DNA of 64,000 bases from an uncultured Pseudomonadales bacterium. GTDB lineage: Bacteria; Pseudomonadota; Gammaproteobacteria; Pseudomonadales; Azotimanducaceae. Positions within the stretch are counted from its first letter, which is position 1, and each line of letters begins with the position of its first letter. Positions 51,302 through 62,704 of the stretch are shown piece by piece. Both the position numbers and the translations under genes were made by a program. The stretch lies in the NCBI GenBank assembly GCA_958296295.1, contig OY282460.1, positions 2,666,001 through 2,730,000 on the forward strand. The letters run 5' to 3'. The notes under the pieces were generated by a model. That model did not search any database. It saw nothing but the letters and a program-made list of their open reading frames with translations, and had not been told where the DNA came from.

Positions 51302-51847
51302 TCAAACGCGGCTGCTGCGCCAGTGCAGGAACGCCAGCGCCACGATCCCGACGAAACCGCCGAGCGCGAGCGCCGGGATCGTGGCGGATTGTTCCGCGCA
51401 TTCGCCGGTGCCGCTCAACATGGCGCGCAGAATGTCGCCGAGCGGGAAGGCGTCGAGCATGTAGCCGAAATCCACCCCGCAGCTGGGCACCTGGTCCGCC
51501 GGCAGCGTCAGCAGGTGCAGGTGGCGCACGGAGAAGTAGCCGCCGCCGACCGCCGCCAGCCCCGCGAGCACGGGATAGACGCGCCGGCGCGGGCTGTGCG
51601 CGAATCCGGCCAGGGCAACGAGCCCCGCCAGCAGAACCCAAAGCCGCTGATTGATGCACAGCGCGCACGGCACCTGCCCGAAACCGTATTCCAGAATCAG
51701 GGCGCCGCCGAGCAGCGCGGCGGTCCAACCGATCATGGCCAAGCTCCACCATTCGCGGCGGTCGATGGCGCGCCAAAGGGCGGGCAGCGCGCCGCCCGCC
51801 CCCGCCTTCGCCGGTCCCCCGCCGCTTGCGGTGGCCGCTCTGGCCAT
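51302..51847 (-). CDS. dsbB: Disulfide bond formation protein DsbB
   Basis: A 181-residue inner-membrane protein that reoxidises DsbA and passes electrons to quinone. Four helices and both periplasmic cysteine pairs are present: Cys61/Cys64 in QVPCALCINQRLW, and Cys123 and Cys150 in PSCGVDFGYMLDAF and GTGECAEQS. The arginine after CALC (NQR) interacts with quinone in E. coli DsbB. The N-terminus has 20 extra Ala/Gly-rich residues. The ATG overlaps the stop of the PBP1A gene (TGATG). No dsbA is in the window. Confidence 0.92.
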   Translation of the reverse strand: MARAATASGGGPAKAGAGGALPALWRAIDRREWWSLAMIGWTAALLGGALILEYGFGQVPCALCINQRLWVLLAGLVALAGFAHSPRRRVYPVLAGLAAVGGGYFSVRHLHLLTLPADQVPSCGVDFGYMLDAFPLGDILRAMLSGTGECAEQSATIPALALGGFVGIVALAFLHWRSSRV

Positions 51848-54387
51848 CAGAACACGTCCTCAGGACGCGCCGGCCGCGTGTCGCCCGGGCGCCGCGTCGG
51901 CGAAGCCGGCTGGCTCGATTCGGGCATATGCTCCTCCAAAAAGTACTCGAAAACGGCGTCGGGGTCGCCCGGTGACGCCACCCGCCCGGTGTCCGGATTC
52001 ACTTTCACGCTCACCACGCCCTCGGGAATGTTCGGCGACGCGACGGGCAGGTCCTCGAGGGCGGCACGCATGAAGTCCGTCCAGATGGCGAGCGGCGCCT
52101 TGGAGCCGAACTCGTTCTTGCCCGTGGAGCGGCCATCGGAGAAGCCGACCCACGTTGTGGCGACGAGCTTGGGGTGAAAGCCGTTGAACCAAGTGTCCGT
52201 CGCATCGTCCGTCGTGCCGGTCTTGCCGCCCAAGTCCGACCGCCCAAGCTGTTGACCGGCGCGCCGGCCGGTGCCGAGCCGCACCACATCCCCAAGCATG
52301 GAACGCATGATAAAGGCGTTGCGGGCGTCCAACACGCGCTCCGGCAACGGCGCCGTGTCCGCCGAGGACGCGGGGCAAGGATCGCAGACGACGGGACGCA
52401 CCGGCGCGGACACCAAGGTGCCATCCTGCTTTTGCACCCGGTCGACGATGTGCGGCGCCACCCGGTAGCCGCCATTGGCGATGATGGCGTAGCCGGCCGC
52501 CATCTCCAGCGGCGTGAACAGCATCTTGCCGCCGCCGATCGCCAGCTGGGTATTGCGCGGCAGCTTGTCGGCGGCGAAGCCGAACTTGGTCACGTGGTCT
52601 ACGGTGCGTTCGACCCCCACATCGAGCAGCACGCCGATGGAGATGCTGTTTTTAGATTTGTACAACCCGCGCCGCAACGGCATCTTGCCCTCGAAACCGC
52701 CTTCGTTGCGCGGCCGGTACTCCGTCTCCAGATTGGCGTCTTGGAAAACGCGCGGCACATCCCAATAGATGGTCGCCGGGGTCACGCCGCTGGCCAAGGC
52801 CGCCGAGTACACGAAGGGCTTGAAGCTGGAGCCGGGCTGCCGGCGCGCCTGGAGCGCGTGGTTGAACTGCTTGGCGTTGAAGTCCCAGCCGCCCACCATC
52901 GCCCGCACCGCGCCGCTATGCGAATCGAGCGCCACCAACGCCCCTTGCACGTCCGGCAGCTGGGCTAGCCGCCAACCGGAGGCGCCCGGTCGCAAGTAGA
53001 CGACGTCTCCCGGCGACACGACATCCGCGGCCTCTTTCGGCACCGGGCCAAGGCTGTCCGTCCCCAGGAACGGTCGCGCCCAGCGCAGGGCCTCCTCGCC
53101 GAGCGTCGCGAGTTGCCCGCCGCGCCGCACGACGACGGCTTCCCACCCCCGCACGCGCAACACCACCCCGGCCTGTAGATCGCCGCTGGCCGGGAAGTCG
53201 GCCAACGCGGCCGTCAGCGCCTCTTGATCAATCGTCGCGGCAAGTGGCGTCTCCCGCGTTGGCGCATCGCCGAGCGGCGCGACGCTGGCAAGATCCGCCC
53301 GCCCGGCGGGGCCCCGGTAGCCGTGACGCCGGTCGTATGCCAAGAGGCCCTCCCGCAACGCCCGTTGCGCCTCGGCCTGCAGCTTGGAATCCAACGTGGT
53401 GTACACGTCGAAACCGGTGTAGATGTCTCGACCGTGTTCCTTGAACAGCTCAACCCGCACCCACTCGGCGGGATAGGACGCCGGCAGGTCGATGCCGCGT
53501 TGGAACACCTTGGCGGTGATGGGAGCGGCCACCGCGGCTTCGTACTCGGCCCTGCCTATGGAACCTTGGGACAACATGCGCCGCAGTACCAGGTTGCGCC
53601 GCTTCACGGCCCATTCCGGGCCGTTGATCGGGTTGCCCCCTTCCGGCTTTTTCAGAATGCCCGCCAGCATGGCAAGCTGGGCGAGATCGAGTTCGGCGGC
53701 CGGCTTGCCGTAGTAGGTGTTCGCCGCCGCCTGCACGCCGTAGGCGTTTTTGCCGAACGACATGATGTTCACGTAGAGCTCGAGTATCTGCGCCTTGGTG
53801 AGGTCGCGCTCGATCTTGAGCGCCGTCAGCATCTCCTTGAACTTGCGGATGAACAACTGCTCGCGGTCGAACGAGACGACTTTGGCGAGCTGCATGGTGA
53901 TGGTGCTCGCGCCGGTGCGGACGTCGGAGGTGGCCAAGCTCACCACATCGTTTGCCAGCGACAAGAGATCGATGCCGAAATGCCAATAGAAACGCTTGTC
54001 TTCGGTGTCGATGAGGCCGTTGAGGAAGTGTTCCGGCACATCCGCGAGCGCGATGGGTATGAGCCGCCGCCCGAACTCGCCGATCAACGCGCTGTCGGCG
54101 GTGTAAATGCGCAACGGCGTTTCGTATCGGTAATCTCTGTACGTCTCTATGGACGGAATCCTAGGGTCCAAATAGACAAAAACTGACGCGAATCCGAGAG
54201 AAAACGTACAGACACCGGCTCCGGCAAGCCAGAAAATCACCCTGAGTACCCGACGCGCACGCGCCCTGCCGAGGAGGTTCCGGCCGGCTTTGCCGAGCGC
54301 CTTGGCGCGTGTTGACAGGAGCATCGCGAATGAGAGCCAAGCCGAAAATCCGACCCGAAGCCGGTGCCGCGCCATCCTTCGGGCCAT
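51847..54387 (-). CDS. mrcA: Penicillin-binding protein 1A (bifunctional)
   Basis: About 846 residues. After one transmembrane helix (VLRVIFWLAGAGVCTFSLGFASVFVYL) comes a GT51 glycosyltransferase with the catalytic EDKRFYWHFGID, TGASTITMQLAK and KKPEGGNPI region. An OB-like insert leads to a transpeptidase with SSFKPF (Ser nucleophile), SKNS and KTGTTDDATD. Together these polymerise and crosslink peptidoglycan. The start is uncertain: in-frame ATGs exist at 54387, 54375 and 54324, and the frame opens to 54552, but that would overlap the divergent pilM start. The ponA - pilM divergence is the usual gammaproteobacterial arrangement. Confidence 0.92.
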   Translation of the reverse strand: MARRMARHRLRVGFSAWLSFAMLLSTRAKALGKAGRNLLGRARARRVLRVIFWLAGAGVCTFSLGFASVFVYLDPRIPSIETYRDYRYETPLRIYTADSALIGEFGRRLIPIALADVPEHFLNGLIDTEDKRFYWHFGIDLLSLANDVVSLATSDVRTGASTITMQLAKVVSFDREQLFIRKFKEMLTALKIERDLTKAQILELYVNIMSFGKNAYGVQAAANTYYGKPAAELDLAQLAMLAGILKKPEGGNPINGPEWAVKRRNLVLRRMLSQGSIGRAEYEAAVAAPITAKVFQRGIDLPASYPAEWVRVELFKEHGRDIYTGFDVYTTLDSKLQAEAQRALREGLLAYDRRHGYRGPAGRADLASVAPLGDAPTRETPLAATIDQEALTAALADFPASGDLQAGVVLRVRGWEAVVVRRGGQLATLGEEALRWARPFLGTDSLGPVPKEAADVVSPGDVVYLRPGASGWRLAQLPDVQGALVALDSHSGAVRAMVGGWDFNAKQFNHALQARRQPGSSFKPFVYSAALASGVTPATIYWDVPRVFQDANLETEYRPRNEGGFEGKMPLRRGLYKSKNSISIGVLLDVGVERTVDHVTKFGFAADKLPRNTQLAIGGGKMLFTPLEMAAGYAIIANGGYRVAPHIVDRVQKQDGTLVSAPVRPVVCDPCPASSADTAPLPERVLDARNAFIMRSMLGDVVRLGTGRRAGQQLGRSDLGGKTGTTDDATDTWFNGFHPKLVATTWVGFSDGRSTGKNEFGSKAPLAIWTDFMRAALEDLPVASPNIPEGVVSVKVNPDTGRVASPGDPDAVFEYFLEEHMPESSQPASPTRRPGDTRPARPEDVF

Positions 54388-54463
54388 TCTCGCCGACAGG
54401 AGCGTTTTCTTGAGACCGTCCAATCGCTTACTTGGCTCCAGCCGAGTAGCCAAACCGAGCCCG

Positions 54464-55700
54464 GTGGTTGCCGGCCGTCGGCGAATTCCCCGCTTCGCGC
54501 CAAGACCGCGGCTTCGGCGCGGCGCCTTCGTTGGCGTCGACATCGGCACCACCGCGGTGAAGTTGGTCGAGTTGTCGCCAAGCCGCCAACTCGCGCCGAA
54601 TGCCGGTCATCGCGGGCCGCCTGTCGCGTTCTGGCGTGTGGACTCGAACCGCTGCCACCCGGCGCGGTCTCCGGGGCACAAGCCAATATAAGCGATCCGG
54701 GCGCGGTTGGCGAAGCCATCCGGCGCCCGCGCCGGCGAACCCGGGCGAAGGCGCGCAACGCCGCCCTTGCCATTCCCCATGCCGCGGCGGTGGTGAAGAC
54801 CCTGCGCTTGGACGCCACCTTGACGGATGACGAAATGGAACTGGAAGTCGCCTTGGAGGCGGAACACCTGTTCCCGTTCCCGCCTGGGAAACCGCGTTGG
54901 ACTTCGAGCCGGCGCAGCTCTGCCTGGACGACCCCGCGCTGGTGGAGGTGATCGTGGTGGGGTGCCGATCCGAGCACGCCCGCGCTCGGCAGGCCGCGGC
55001 GGCGGCCGGCGGGCTCAAAGCCACGGCCTTGGAGGTGGAGACCACGGCGCTCGCCCGGGCCGCGGCTTTGGCCCCACCCGCCTTGCTCGCCGTCGTTGAT
55101 CTCGGCGACACCAAGGCCACGCTGCTCGCGATCGAAGGCGGCGCTTTGCTGTTCGCCCGCCAGGAGCCCTTCGACGCGCACCAGACAGCCAATGGAACAG
55201 CGCCGGAAGTCGAAAGAACTGGTGCGCCAAATCTCCCGCCTGTTGCGGCTGTTCTTCGCCGCCCAAGGCGACGACCAGTACGCACTGGATCAACTGCTCG
55301 TCAGCGGCGGACGCGCCGGCACTCCCGGCCTCGCCGAAACCGCGACCGAAAAGTTGGGGCTGCCCGTAGCGCTGGCCGATCCGTTCGATCAAATGGCGTT
55401 CCGGATTGCCCGTCCGAGCAAAGACCGCGCCGGGAACACGCCAACGGCATTGCGCCACCTACGGCGACGGGCAACGCGCCTGTTTCCCGGCAGACGCCCC
55501 GCGCAGAAGACGGTGCGCCGCCGCCAGGGCAAGGCCCGCCGCCGATCCCGCACGGGGCGGGCGCACACGTCGACGCGGCCAAATCCCCGGTACTGGCCAC
55601 GGCCTGCGGCCTCGCGCTGCGGGGCGTGGCGGCCGAACCGGGGGAATGTCCGGCGGCGGTTGCCGAGACGCCCCCTCCCACCGTCGGGAGCCAGCCATGA
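54464..55700 (+). pseudogene. pilM: pilM pseudogene (type IV pilus ATPase-fold protein)
   Basis: PilM is the actin-like cytoplasmic subunit of the type IV pilus alignment complex. Its sequence can be followed here only by changing frame at least four times. Frame 2: GVDIGTTAVKLVELSPSRQ (about 54530-54600). Frame 1: VLACGLEPLPPGAVSGAQA to EAEHLFPFP (about 54640-54890). Frame 0: LDFEPAQLCLDDPALVEVIV to LALA (about 54895-55190). Frame 1: KELVRQISRLLRLFFAAQGD to GLPVALADPF (about 55205-55400). Frame 0: SPVLATACGLALRGVA (about 55580-55630). Order and length match PilM, so it is a decayed copy. Its last stop overlaps the pilN ATG. Confidence 0.85.
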
Positions 55701-56326
55701 ACCGCGTGAACCTGTCGCCGTGGCGCGAACACCGGCGGCAACGGCAGTTGCGGCTTTTCGCGACCGCGCTGGCCGCGTCCGTTCTTTTCGCAGCTGGCGC
55801 TGTGGCCCTCGCCGCGGCGCATGTCCGCGGGCGTGGAGCGCCAACGCGGCGTGAACGACGGCATCGCCACTTCGATCCAAGCGCTCGACGCCGGCATCTC
55901 CGAAGCGGATCGGTTGCGACGCGAGACGCGGGAGATCGACAACGGCGTGGCGCAATTGCGCGGCCTGCAGGCGAAACGGACGGTGGTGGCGGGATATTGG
56001 CGGCCATCGCCGAGACCGCGGTGCCCGGCGCGCACTACACGCGGTTGGCGCGGGAAGGCGGGAGTATCACGCTGGCGGCCACCAGCGCCCACACGTCGGC
56101 GGCGCCTGCCCCGGCGGAGCAACAGGCCGCGCCACCGCAAGCGGCGGCGGCGGTGTCGTCCAGCGCGCGGACGCCGGCGGCACCTAGCCCGTCGGAGGCA
56201 CAAGCCGCACCTCGGCAAGCGACTACGACGGTGTCGTCCACTCGCGAACAACGCCGGACGCGCCAACCCCGCGCGAAGCGCAAGGCGCGCGACCGCAAGC
56301 GACGGCCCGCGAACGCTTGTCGCTGA
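55697..56326 (+). pseudogene. pilN: pilN pseudogene (type IV pilus inner-membrane protein)
   Basis: Starts normally with MNRVNLSPWREHRRQRQLR and the transmembrane helix LFATALAASVLFAAGAVALA, as in PilN. The frame is then lost near 55825; the coiled-coil part continues in another frame (ATSIQALDAGISEADRLRRE to GLQAKRTVVAG), and the periplasmic part returns in the first frame (ILAAIAETAVPGAHYTRLAR, EGGSITLAATS). After this come two imperfect 26-residue Ala/Pro-rich repeats up to a stop at 56326. Genes pilO and pilP, which should follow, are absent: PilN tail and PilQ secretin are only about 200 bases apart. Confidence 0.82.
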
Positions 56327-57597
56327 ACTTGCGGAACGTGGAAACGCGCGCCGCGCTGCAGCTGATCGCGGACTTCGCGGATGTCAACCTGGTCGTGGCC
56401 GACGGCGTAACGGACACGGTCGCGCTGCGCTTGCGCGACATCTCCTGGGACGAGGCGTTGGACGTGATTCTCGCCAGCAACGGCCTCGGCAAACGGCAAC
56501 GCGGCAACGTGTTGCTGGTGGCGCCGGCCGAAGCCCTCGCCAGCCACGAGAAAATGGCGTTGGAGAGCGGACGCGCCCTTGCCGAGTTGGCGCCGCTCGC
56601 CACCGAGTTCATCCACATTCGTTACGCCGACGCCGCCACCCTCGCGGCGCTGTTCGATGCCGAAACCGGCGCGTGCGCCCGGTCGGAACGCGGGCGCGTG
56701 CTGGTGGACGCCCGCACCAACGCTCTCGTCGTCAGCGAGACCGCGGCCAACCTCGCCGCGAGACGCGGCGCCATCGCGCAGCTCGACGTTCCGGCGCGGC
56801 AGATGCGAATCGAGGCGCGGGTGGTAAGCGCCAACAACAACTTCTCCGAGCAGCTCGGCGTGCGCTGGGGCGGCGGCGGACATCGCGGCGTCGGGCAGCG
56901 GGGCAAACACCTGAAATGGGGCGGCAGCTTGCGAACGCTTTCGGAACTGCAGAACACCATCGCCGACGACGAAGTATCCCAAGCCGCGATCAGCCATCCC
57001 GGCGCGCATTGGTGGCGGACTTGGCGGTCACCGACCAGGCACAACCAGCATCGGCTTCGGCCTCACCGGCCCCGGTTTCCTGCTGGACTTGGAGCTTTCG
57101 GCGTTGGCGGCGGCCGGCGAAGCCGAGATCATCGCCCGCCCGAGCGTCGTCACCACAGACAAACGCACCGCGGTGATCGAAACCGGTGTGGAAATACCCT
57201 ATCAGGAGGCCACGCACGCCGGGGGCACTTCCATCTCGTTCAAGGAGGCGGTGCTGCAACTCGACGTCGCCCCGCAGGTGACGCCGGGCGGGAACATCTT
57301 GCTGGAGCTGGAAATCAAGCAAGACACGGTTGGCAAGATCTACTACGGCGTTCCCAGCATCAACACCACCCGCATCGCCACTCGCGCCTTCGTGGCCAAT
57401 GGCGAGACGGTGGTGATCGGTGGCATCTTCCAAACCGACAAGCACCACGCGACGACACGCACGCCGCTGCTGGGCGAGCTGCCGGTCTTCGGCAGGCTGT
57501 TCCGGCGCACGTTGCAGCGGGACGACAAGCGCGAGCTGTTCGTGTCATCACACCCGAAGTCGCGCAAGATCCCGCGCAAGGCAGCGCCGGCGGGTAG
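56317..57597 (+). pseudogene. pilQ: pilQ pseudogene (secretin), N-terminally truncated
   Basis: PilQ is the outer-membrane secretin of type IV pili. Present: the STN/N0 segment SLNLRNVETRAALQLIADFA and LRDISWDEALDVILASNGLG, an N1-like part LATEFIHIRYADAATLAALF, and the secretin core EIIARPSVVTTDKRTAVIET, EIPYQEATHAGGTS, GETVVIGGIFQ and TPLLGELPVFGRLFR. The reading frame changes near 57000 (frame 1 to 0), near 57040 (0 to 2) and near 57545 (2 to 1, where ITPEVAQDP completes the C-terminus). The AMIN domains of a full PilQ are missing. No signal peptide is left. Confidence 0.85.
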
Positions 57598-57654: not shown

Positions 57655-58176
57655 ATGATCAAACGCAACGTCTTTCTCGTCGGCATGATGGCCGTCGGAA
57701 AAACCACCATCGGTCGCCATCTCGCGACGCTCTTGGAGTTCGAGTTCGTGGACAGCGATCAGGAAATCGAACGCCGCGCCGGCACCGACATCTCGTGGAT
57801 CTTCGACATCGAAGGCGAGGCCGGCTTTCGCGACCGCGAACAACAGGTGCTCGCCGAGCTCGCCCAGCGCGAACGCGTGGTGCTGGCCACCGGCGGCGGC
57901 GCGGTGCTGCGGGAGCGGAACCGCGCCGTCCTGCGGGAGCACGGCACCGTGGTCCACATCAGCGCCAGCGTCGGGCAGATCGTCGCCCGCGCCAAACGCG
58001 ATCGCCGCCGACCGCTGCTGCAAGGTGGCGACCTTCGCGAACGGGTGCAGACGCTGCGCCGAGAACGCGAGCCGCTCTACAATGCCGCCGCGCATCTGGT
58101 GATCCACAGCAAAGGGCGCCCGTCGAAGGTCATCGCGGACGAGATTCTCGCGGCGTTGAACGCCACGCCACCATGA
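57655..58176 (+). CDS. aroK: Shikimate kinase
   Basis: A 173-residue kinase phosphorylating shikimate in aromatic amino-acid synthesis. Walker A is GMMAVGKTTIGRHLA, the shikimate-binding Asp is in DSDQEIERRAG, and the segments FRDREQQVL and VLATGGGAVL, the lid arginines (RDRRRPLL) and REPLYNAAAH are present. The family Walker A usually reads GxxGxGK; here MMAVGK is within normal variation. It survives intact directly behind the decayed pil genes. The ATG at 57655 follows AAAGGAAAC. It overlaps aroB by four bases (ATGA). Confidence 0.95.
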   Translation: MIKRNVFLVGMMAVGKTTIGRHLATLLEFEFVDSDQEIERRAGTDISWIFDIEGEAGFRDREQQVLAELAQRERVVLATGGGAVLRERNRAVLREHGTVVHISASVGQIVARAKRDRRRPLLQGGDLRERVQTLRREREPLYNAAAHLVIHSKGRPSKVIADEILAALNATPP

Positions 58177-59255
58177 GCCAACGGCTGGAAGTGCGCTTGG
58201 CGGGCGGGCGGGCGTACCCCATCGTCCTCGGCAGCGGTCTGCTCGGCGACCCCGAGGTGCTCGGGCCGCATACCGGCAAGCAAGCCCTTGTCGTCACCAA
58301 CGCAGAAGTGGCGGCCCGCTACCTCGGGGCGGTTCGCCGAAGCTTGGCTGCCGAGCAGGTGGACGTCTTCGAGATCGGCGATGGCGAGCGGTTCAAGACG
58401 CTGGACACCTACGCGGCGATACTGGACACGTTGGTGGCCAAGCGCCACAGCCGCTCCACAACCGTCGTCGCGCTTGGCGGCGGCGTGGTGGGCGACGTCG
58501 CCGGGTTCGCCGCCGCCACCTATCAGCGCGGCGTGGATCTGGTGCAGATACCCACCACGCTGCTCGCCCAAGTCGATTCGTCCGTAGGCGGCAAGACCGC
58601 GGTGAACCACCCGGCGGGCAAGAACCTCATCGGCGCGTTCCACCAGCCCCGGGCGGTGGTGGCGGACGTGGATACGCTGCACACGCTACCGAAGCGCGAA
58701 CTTCTCGCTGGGCTCGCCGAGGTGGTCAAATGCGGTGTCATCGCCGATGCGGGTTTTTTCGGCTGGCTGGAGGCCCACGCCGCGGAGGTGGCCGCGCTCG
58801 ACGCCGGGGCGACGCTCCACGCCGTGCGACGCTGCTGCGAAATCAAAGCGGAAGTCGTGGCCGCGGACGAGCGGGAACAGGGCCGGCGGGCCGTCTTGAA
58901 CTTCGGCCACACGTTCGGCCACGCGATCGAAGCGCTTACCGGCTATCAACGCTACCTGCACGGCGAGGCCGTTGCCATCGGCATGGCGATGGCGATGGCC
59001 CTGTCGGTGCGGCTCGGTTTGGCGCCCGGATCCGACGCGCAACGCGTGCAACGTCTGCTGCGCGCGGCCGGGTTGCCGGGCGCCGCCGAAGGGGTCTCGC
59101 CGGAAGCCATGCTGGACGCCATGGCGATGGACAAGAAAGCGCGGGACGGGCGGGTGCGGCTGGTCGTGTGCAAGGGCATCGGTCGGGTGTCGGTGATCGC
59201 CGACGCGCCGCGCAAGACGGTTCTCGCCGCGATGGAAGACTGGATCGCGGATTGA
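58173..59255 (+). CDS. aroB: 3-dehydroquinate synthase
   Basis: A 360-residue NAD- and zinc-dependent enzyme of the shikimate pathway converting DAHP to dehydroquinate. IGDGERFKTLDTYAAILD, VVALGGGVVGDVAGFAAATYQRG, PTTLLAQVDSSVGGKTAVNH, KNLIGAFHQP, and the zinc ligands in ELLAGLAEVVKCGVI, LNFGHTFGHAIEA and LHGEAVAIGM are intact. Order aroK-aroB is standard. It converges with the Dyp peroxidase gene, 25 bases away. Confidence 0.96.
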   Translation: MSQRLEVRLAGGRAYPIVLGSGLLGDPEVLGPHTGKQALVVTNAEVAARYLGAVRRSLAAEQVDVFEIGDGERFKTLDTYAAILDTLVAKRHSRSTTVVALGGGVVGDVAGFAAATYQRGVDLVQIPTTLLAQVDSSVGGKTAVNHPAGKNLIGAFHQPRAVVADVDTLHTLPKRELLAGLAEVVKCGVIADAGFFGWLEAHAAEVAALDAGATLHAVRRCCEIKAEVVAADEREQGRRAVLNFGHTFGHAIEALTGYQRYLHGEAVAIGMAMAMALSVRLGLAPGSDAQRVQRLLRAAGLPGAAEGVSPEAMLDAMAMDKKARDGRVRLVVCKGIGRVSVIADAPRKTVLAAMEDWIAD

Positions 59256-60286: not shown

Positions 60287-60703
60287 ATGCCGATAAAGAG
60301 CATATTCGGGCTGGTCGAAGAGACCAAGCGCGACATCGAAAACCTCTCGGTGGCGGAACTGAAGGCCGAGCTCGACAGCCGCGACGTGCTGGTCGTCGAC
60401 ATCCGCGAGCTTCAAGAACGGGTGGACCTCGGCACCATCCCGGGGGCCAAGCACGCGCCGCGCGGGATGCTGGAGTTCTGGGCGGATCCGCACAGTCCCT
60501 ATTTCCGCAAATGGTTCCAAGAGAATCGGCGCATCGTGTTGTTCTGCGCGGCCGGCGGGCGTTCGGCTCTCGCCGCCAAGGCGCTCGGCGACATGGGCTT
60601 CACCAACGTGGCGCACCTAGAGCCCGGCTTCAAGGGCTGGCAGGACGCCGACGAAACCGTGGAGGACGTGCGCGCCACCAGCCGCTGGCGACGCCTCCGT
60701 TGA
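60287..60703 (+). CDS. Rhodanese-like sulfurtransferase
   Basis: A 138-residue single-domain rhodanese. SVAELKAELDSRDVLVVDIRE, ELQERVDLGTIPGAKHAPRG and the active loop VLFCAAGGRSALAAKAL with the catalytic Cys are present, followed by FTNVAHLEPGFKGW. Sulfur donor and acceptor are unknown. Its stop overlaps the exonuclease start (TGATG), so the two are coupled. Divergent from the Dyp peroxidase, which together could form a small stress locus. Confidence 0.87.
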   Translation: MPIKSIFGLVEETKRDIENLSVAELKAELDSRDVLVVDIRELQERVDLGTIPGAKHAPRGMLEFWADPHSPYFRKWFQENRRIVLFCAAGGRSALAAKALGDMGFTNVAHLEPGFKGWQDADETVEDVRATSRWRRLR

Positions 60704-61578
60704 TGCGGCTGCATCTGGTAGACGGCACGTTCGAGCTCTTCCGGGCGCACTACTCCAAACGCCCGGCCCGCGTCTCGCCGACCGGAATGGACGTCAAGGC
60801 CACGGTAGGCGTGGTCACGTCGCTTATCGGCTTGCTCGACGACCCCGACGAGCGCGTCTCGCACCTGGCGGTGGCGTTCGACAACCCGATAGAGTCGTTC
60901 CGCAACGACTTGTTCGCAGGCTACAAGACCGGCGAGGGCATGGATCCCGCCATCGTCGCGCAGTTCGACCTTGTGGAGGAAGCCGTGGCGGCGCTCGGCG
61001 TCACCGTCTGGTCGATGCGGCGTCACGAGGCGGACGACGCGCTCGCCACCGCCGCGCACCGCTGGCGCGACGAGGTGGCCGAGGTGCGGCTGCTGACGCC
61101 GGACAAGGACCTGGGGCAATGCGTCACCGGCAACCGCGTGGTGCAGGTGGACCGGGTGCGCCGGCGCGTCATAGACGAGGACGGCGTCGTCGCCCGCCAC
61201 GGCTGCCCGCCGGCCTCGGTGCCGGATTGGCTGGCCTTGGTCGGCGACGCCGCCGACGGCATTCCCGGCGTCCCCGGTTTCGGCGCGAAGACCGCCGGCC
61301 GGTTGCTCTCGCGCTACGGCACCGTGGAGGCGATTCCCAAGAGCGCCGCGGCTTGGCGTGTGCCGGTGCGCGGCGCCGCCCGGTTGGCGGCCCGGTTGAA
61401 CGCCATGCCGGAAGACGTGGCCCTGTACAAGCGTCTGGCCACCCTAGCCACGGATGTGCCGCTCGCCGAGACCCTGGACGACCTGCGTTGGCGCGGGGCG
61501 TCCCGCGCGCGCTTCCGGCGTTTGGCCGACAGCTTGGGCGGCATACCGGCACAGCCCCGCAGGGCCGCCGCCACCTGA
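60703..61578 (+). CDS. 5'-3' exonuclease (FEN/PolI N-terminal-like)
   Basis: A 291-residue stand-alone 5' nuclease. The metal-binding acidic residues are all in place: LVDGTFELFRAHYS (first Asp), AFDNPIESFRNDLFAGYK, RRHEADDALATAAHRW, LLTPDKDLGQCVTGN, and LVGDAADGIPGVPGFGAKTA with the helix-hairpin-helix. Stand-alone 5' exonucleases of this size occur in bacteria in addition to PolA and remove flaps or primers. It starts at ATG 60703 overlapping the rhodanese stop. A diverged duplicate follows 250 bases downstream. Confidence 0.88.
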   Translation: MRLHLVDGTFELFRAHYSKRPARVSPTGMDVKATVGVVTSLIGLLDDPDERVSHLAVAFDNPIESFRNDLFAGYKTGEGMDPAIVAQFDLVEEAVAALGVTVWSMRRHEADDALATAAHRWRDEVAEVRLLTPDKDLGQCVTGNRVVQVDRVRRRVIDEDGVVARHGCPPASVPDWLALVGDAADGIPGVPGFGAKTAGRLLSRYGTVEAIPKSAAAWRVPVRGAARLAARLNAMPEDVALYKRLATLATDVPLAETLDDLRWRGASRARFRRLADSLGGIPAQPRRAAAT

Positions 61579-61829: not shown

Positions 61830-62704
61830 ATGCGCCTGCATATCGTCAACGGCACCCAAGCGTTGTTGGCCGCTCACACTTCCACGCGCCCGCGGCACCG
61901 CTCCCGGAGTGGGCGGGATCTCAAGGCGACGACCGGCGTCATGGCCTTCATCGTCAGTCTGCTCGAGGACCCGCGCGAGGCTGTCACACATATCGCGGTG
62001 GCGTTCGACAATCCGGTGCGTTCCTTTCGCAACGACATTTTCGCGGACTACCGCGTGGCGTCGGGCATGACGCCGGAAGTGACAGAACAGATCGGGCTCG
62101 CCGCGGACGCCGTCGCCGCGCTGGGCGTCAAAGTCTGGTCGATGGCGAACTTGGAAGCGAACGACGCGTTGGCCACCGCGGCCCGGCGTTGGCGCGACGA
62201 AGTGGAGCAGGTGCGCCTCTTTTCCGTGGATCCGGTGGTTGGCCAATGCGTGCGGGGGATCAGGTGGTGCAGGTGAACCAAAGGCTGCTCCGCGTGACGA
62301 CCGAACGCGAGATCCACGTCCGCTGCGGCTGTGGAGCGGCCCGGTTGCCCGATTGGCTGGCGCTGGTGGGCGATCCCGGCCACGGCATCCCCGGCATTCC
62401 CCAGTTCGGGGCCCGCTCGGCCGGCGCGCTGGTGGCGAAGTTCGGCGGCATTGAAGCAATCCCGGCGGACGGCGGCCGATGGCAGGTGGCCAAACGGCAC
62501 ACATCGCGCCTGGCCAACTCCTTGCGAAGTCGGCGGCCGACAGCGGCGCTCCACAAGCGGCTCGCGACGTTGGCCGTCGACGCGCCGATCTCGAACTCCC
62601 TAGCGGATCTGCGCTGGCATGGCGCGTACCCGGAGAAACTGGCGGCGCTCACTCGCGCTCACGGCATCGCGCCGACCCTGCCGCGGGCTTGGCGTTGGCT
62701 CTGA
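61830..62704 (+). pseudogene. Duplicate of the 5'-3' exonuclease, frameshifted and lacking catalytic Asp residues
   Basis: The 875-base stretch matches the preceding exonuclease over its whole length; with one base added it would encode exactly 291 residues, the same as copy 1. The frame is lost in a run of five G near 62254-62258: VGQCVRG in the first frame continues as DQVVQVNQRLLRV in the next. Independently, metal ligands are changed: LVDGT to IVNGT, EADDALA to EANDALA, PDKDLG to VDPVVG, and GDAADG to GDPGHG. The fold-forming segments (AFDNPVRSFRND, LPDWLALVGD, GIPGIPQFGARSAG) are well kept. The end overlaps the convergent SDR gene by 46 bases. Confidence 0.8.

Follow-up and report, generated by a model that had tools for sequence, protein, structure and literature searches.

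What has become of a bacterium in which the operon for the alignment and secretin parts of the type IV pilus, pilMNOPQ, can no longer be read through? The question is raised by a locus in the window, the 64,000-nucleotide stretch of DNA analysed here (bases 2,666,001-2,730,000 of a genome assembled as one contig of 4,330,499 bases and 96% complete), in which none of the pil genes between mrcA and aroK-aroB has a frame open from end to end. Selection is believed to maintain natural transformation, and most reports of its loss describe single broken genes in individual strains. The evidence set out below indicates that relaxed selection is very probably dismantling pilus-dependent natural transformation, at several unlinked places, in a probably sponge-associated lineage of the Pseudomonadales.

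The flanks of the locus are intact, as an earlier note on this DNA had described: mrcA, encoding PBP1A (51847-54552, minus strand), aroK (57655-58176, plus strand) and aroB (58173-59255, plus strand) are all open, the latter two with homologues at the same place in relatives. The true start of mrcA probably lies near 54282, because conservation is lacking over the first ~90 codons of the open frame. Between the flanks, and all on the plus strand, lie a pilM pseudogene (54510-55404), recognized through pieces of PF11104 and profile alignments, a pilN pseudogene (55697-56072, codons 1-127 of 190), a degenerate 78-base tandem repeat of 2.8 copies (56082-56304) and a pilQ pseudogene for a short secretin (56291-57589, codons 48-462 of 471). 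When the window was aligned, with frame changes allowed, to profiles from same-genus genomes, each built on 11 to 13 sequences, eight frame changes emerged in the assembled sequence: three in pilM (54617, 54880 and 55217), two in pilN (55834 and 55992) and three in pilQ (57001, 57039 and 57545). The decay reported in the earlier note is thus borne out, with eight frame changes where about nine had been counted. In addition, the last ~33 codons of pilM are unrecognisable, and order-level profiles find PilM as four pieces in changing frames and PilN and PilQ as two pieces each.

The middle of the operon is missing. Homology to pilN ends at codon 127 (56072) and homology to pilQ begins at codon 48 (56291), leaving an interval of 218 bases, mostly the tandem repeat, in place of the ~1.5 kb that holds the end of pilN, pilO, pilP and the start of pilQ in intact relatives; a collapse to about 200 bases had been noted before. 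A search of the whole genome gave no match to PilO, and order-level profiles recognise neither PilO nor PilP in the interval, in agreement with the earlier reading that both genes are gone. Genus profiles gave weak local scores for PilO and PilP in the interval (13.6 nats each), which were not counted; that for PilP falls on low-complexity repeat sequence. The position between mrcA and aroK-aroB, the order PilM, PilN, PilQ and the homology are those of the type IVa pilMNOPQ operon with its mrcA-pilMNOPQ-aroKB synteny, and PilO and PilP are lacking. Judged by its sequence, the locus is a real, partly decayed pilMNOPQ operon, predicted to be non-functional.

Comparison with the closest relatives, which the earlier note had proposed, reveals that most sisters hold a complete pilMNOPQ at the same place. 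PilM is present in all 29 genomes searched, and in 11 of the 15 same-genus relatives pilM, pilN, pilO, pilP and pilQ stand at this position in open frames; the other four comprise G008, where a contig end interrupts the locus, G010, whose pilQ occupies two frames, the damaged G013 and the very divergent G015. PilB, the extension motor of the pilus, is full-length or nearly so in 12 of the 15. Since most relatives keep a complete operon and PilB, the ancestor had the system and the state seen in the window is derived.

The locus varies in other ways across the group. Throughout the genus (L039-L052), PilM is divergent and is missing some 40 residues around profile positions 230-268, and PilQ is short, without the N-terminal part found in order-level relatives, so that the genus form differs from the type IVa pilMNOPQ operon in both proteins. 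In G007 and G008 (L045, 4674-6047; L046, 6478-7821), homology to PilO and PilP shares one open frame of about 330 codons, which suggests a PilO-PilP fusion in this sub-lineage. G015 (L053, 3630-7082) and two marine MAGs (L099 and L100) have a very divergent PilM and an intact PilQ, but neither PilN nor PilP can be recognised, so that another kind of system may occupy this position; G015 is also without PilB, PilT and PilO and keeps comEC, dprA and comM. In the wider group the operon has been lost repeatedly, leaving an mrcA-aroK gap of 0.2-0.4 kb without pil genes in L085, L087, L089, L090, L096 and L110 and operon fragments in L106, L107 and L111.

Elsewhere on the chromosome, other pilus genes are affected too. 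The arrangement in sister genomes places pilC and pilB close to argJ and secA, frequently together with pilD, and has one or two pilin genes oriented divergently to pilB. The corresponding neighbourhood of the window genome (argJ at 1607297) keeps intact secA, argJ and pilD, and in it the final ~110 codons of pilC meet the final ~50 of the first pilin gene within about 20 bases, beside a second pilin gene seemingly without a start. A single deletion of ~2.9-3.2 kb, a size judged from sister genomes, would explain the missing pilB and the missing greater part of pilC and of the first pilin gene. No protein in the genome scores over the PilB cut-off; the two relatives that are present are both GspE-like. 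Nor is there a duplicate operon, an eventuality raised in the earlier note along with the state of the remaining pil genes: in the 4.33 Mb genome, the sole match to PilM is the window locus, PilO is unmatched, and three further secretins fall below the PilQ cut-off and look GspD-type or Tad-type. Taken together, open genes for PilM, PilN, PilO, PilP, PilQ, PilB, PilC and the main pilin are all wanting, pilB being gone and pilC mostly gone, and pilD and pilT are intact. The prepilin peptidase PilD is needed by type II secretion too, and that system is represented by a GspE over its cut-off and by GspF.

The decay reaches the genes that act after the pilus. The inner-membrane DNA channel gene comEC, one open frame in nearly all relatives, is split here by two frame changes. 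The gene dprA, for DNA handling in the cytoplasm, is likewise split by two frame changes where most sisters have one uninterrupted frame; the genome also has a second, divergent DprA-like gene, with similarly divergent copies in several sisters. The branch-migration helicase gene comM, a single open frame in most sisters, is fragmented by four frame changes and has a gap of 51 codons, and comF has no match in the genome, the sole absence among 29 genomes. None of ComEC, DprA, ComF and ComM is therefore encoded intact, and these unlinked lesions lend weight to the loss of DNA uptake foreseen in the earlier note. Altogether, 12 of the 13 pathway genes are broken or absent (pilM, pilN, pilO, pilP, pilQ, pilB, pilC, the first pilin gene, comEC, comF, dprA and comM, pilT being spared), and the damaged ones sit at five located places, to which the missing comF is added.

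The following course of events is proposed. The lineage inherited type IV pilus-dependent natural transformation; pilB, with the greater part of pilC and of the first pilin gene, fell to a deletion, pilMNOPQ gained frameshifts and lost its middle (~1.5 kb), and the later-step genes comEC, comF, dprA and comM decayed too, while PilD, which type II secretion also needs, is retained. The lesions themselves are seen in the sequence; their order, and relaxed selection as their cause in a stable life that is probably associated with sponges, are put forward as the most plausible reconstruction. Given the established functions of these genes, the lesions predict a cell without type IVa pili, twitching or transformation.

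The intact PilT is a point against simple loss of the pathway, which does not predict it. The gene (L166, 8991-10217; chromosome about 411 kb) is an open frame of 409 codons that scores 436 bits to TIGR01420 and keeps its conserved motifs, in a genome that lacks PilB and the greater part of the pilus, and it bears no sign of relaxation: the identity of this retraction ATPase to relatives is 64%, against 69% among the relatives themselves, about as conserved as housekeeping genes. For pilM the corresponding values are 38% and 58%, whereas aroB and pilT are hardly depressed. At the rate of about two frame changes per kb seen in the decayed genes, an unselected gene of 1 kb has, by our own estimate, a chance of ~0.1 of escaping damage, so that the intact PilT may be a matter of luck or of a second function. 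That it is kept under selection after loss of the pilus, in a second role on, for example, the retained type II secretion or Tad machinery, is a tentative and rather doubtful suggestion.

Relaxed selection on the whole pathway shares its outcome with a variant that differs in cause, in which selection removed the pilus first (because it serves as a phage receptor, for instance, or is costly as a surface structure) and the genes for DNA uptake, then useless, decayed afterwards. In a relative, G013 (OY282447.1), pilM contains a frame change, pilQ is interrupted, pilB has a stop, and pilT and comEC are also frameshifted, with pilN, pilO, pilP, dprA and comM intact; if real, this state is an independent and earlier stage of loss, and its damaged pilus and comEC beside intact dprA and comM speak for a pilus-first course. 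In the window genome, on the other hand, the lesion density of dprA and comM about equals that of the pil genes, and no order can therefore be read from it. We regard this variant as a serious possibility, albeit not the favoured one.

A second explanation is that the genome is eroding as a whole, the pil and com genes being merely among the losses. Its size of 4.33 Mb, compared with 4.7-5.2 Mb in many sisters, is in keeping with such erosion. Frame changes were counted with a codon-usage HMM in the pil genes and in a background of 20 spaced regions of the same chromosome (300 kb, of which 258 kb is coding); as this model reads a frame change with a nearby stop and start as a gene boundary and misses some, as it did near 62260, the rates are lower bounds. 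The pil genes have six frameshift-like switches in 2.53 kb of coding sequence (2.4 per kb) and the background has 16 in 258 kb (0.06 per kb), a local excess of ~38-fold. By the 16 switches, broken genes would make up a few percent of the total, and another such gene lies inside the window: the second copy (61830-62686) of a 5'-3' exonuclease-like gene (first copy 60703-61575) changes frame near 62260 and is probably a decaying tandem duplicate. The earlier statement that the density of frameshifts is confined to the pil genes is accordingly a little too strong, since this copy and genes elsewhere are also broken. Yet at most ~6% of the sampled genes are affected, taking a gene as 1 kb, against 12 of 13 in the pathway, and PilD, which the pathway shares with another system, was spared; undirected erosion is thus an unlikely account of the pattern.

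It is more doubtful still that the pilus became dispensable through functional replacement. The genome does have a Tad-like locus, with a CpaF-like ATPase and a secretin, as well as a second GspE-like ATPase that carries a c-di-GMP motif, but both GspE-like ATPases have counterparts in sisters that also carry PilB, and the second is therefore not a substitute peculiar to this genome; nor would replacement account for the loss of comEC, dprA, comM and comF. Least probable is that the frame changes are uncorrected indels, for although the single-contig genomes (0.06 per kb here and 0.08 per kb in G013) exceed the fragmented G004 (0.02 per kb; the sister values from ten regions each), a ~38-fold excess on one contig next to open flanking genes, and losses of kilobases or whole genes (pilO, pilP, pilB and comF), lie beyond base-calling error and uphold the earlier attribution to relaxed selection and not to poor sequence.

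Relaxed selection on pilus-dependent transformation is also compatible with the likely habitat. The named relatives are unclassified Gammaproteobacteria or Pseudomonadales MAGs. Isolate names among them begin with RHO, COS and IRC, which match Rhopaloeides odorabile, Coscinoderma matthewsi and Ircinia ramosa, three species in a survey of coral-reef sponges (PMC8163846). Taking the prefixes to denote those sponges, the relatives appear to be mostly sponge-derived and the window lineage is probably sponge-associated, which fits the host-restricted life predicted in the earlier note.

A literature search returned no report on this lineage, and partial parallels are found in other bacteria. In Piscirickettsia salmonis, comEC is broken in all genomes (PMC12955456), so that the DNA-uptake channel gene is broken both in this host-associated gammaproteobacterium and in the window genome, for which the link to a host is drawn from its relatives. 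The breaks in P. salmonis were made by transposable elements and comEA, comFB, comM and dprA are intact (PMC12955456), whereas in the window genome the pilus genes, comEC, dprA, comM and comF are broken or gone through small indels and deletions. Pseudogenes of comM and pilQ in non-transformable strains of Acinetobacter baumannii and Legionella pneumophila have been linked to lost transformation (PMC11472951); the same genes are inactivated there, but as variation between strains and mostly singly, in contrast to the decay of a whole pathway in one genome. Of the Endomicrobium endosymbionts that live in termite-gut protists, one has a genome with numerous pseudogenes in the pilus region, but comEC, comF, comM and dprA, lost in the window genome, are kept and expressed (PMC8809381).

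Loss of transformation is therefore a known event, and what is new is its breadth across the pathway and the half-way state in which it is caught. With a decaying lineage beside sisters that are mostly intact, a matched comparison would become available for the effect of transformation loss on recombination, mobile-element load and host dependence. Some sponge-associated lineages, the finding suggests, are closing themselves off from gene flow by transformation.
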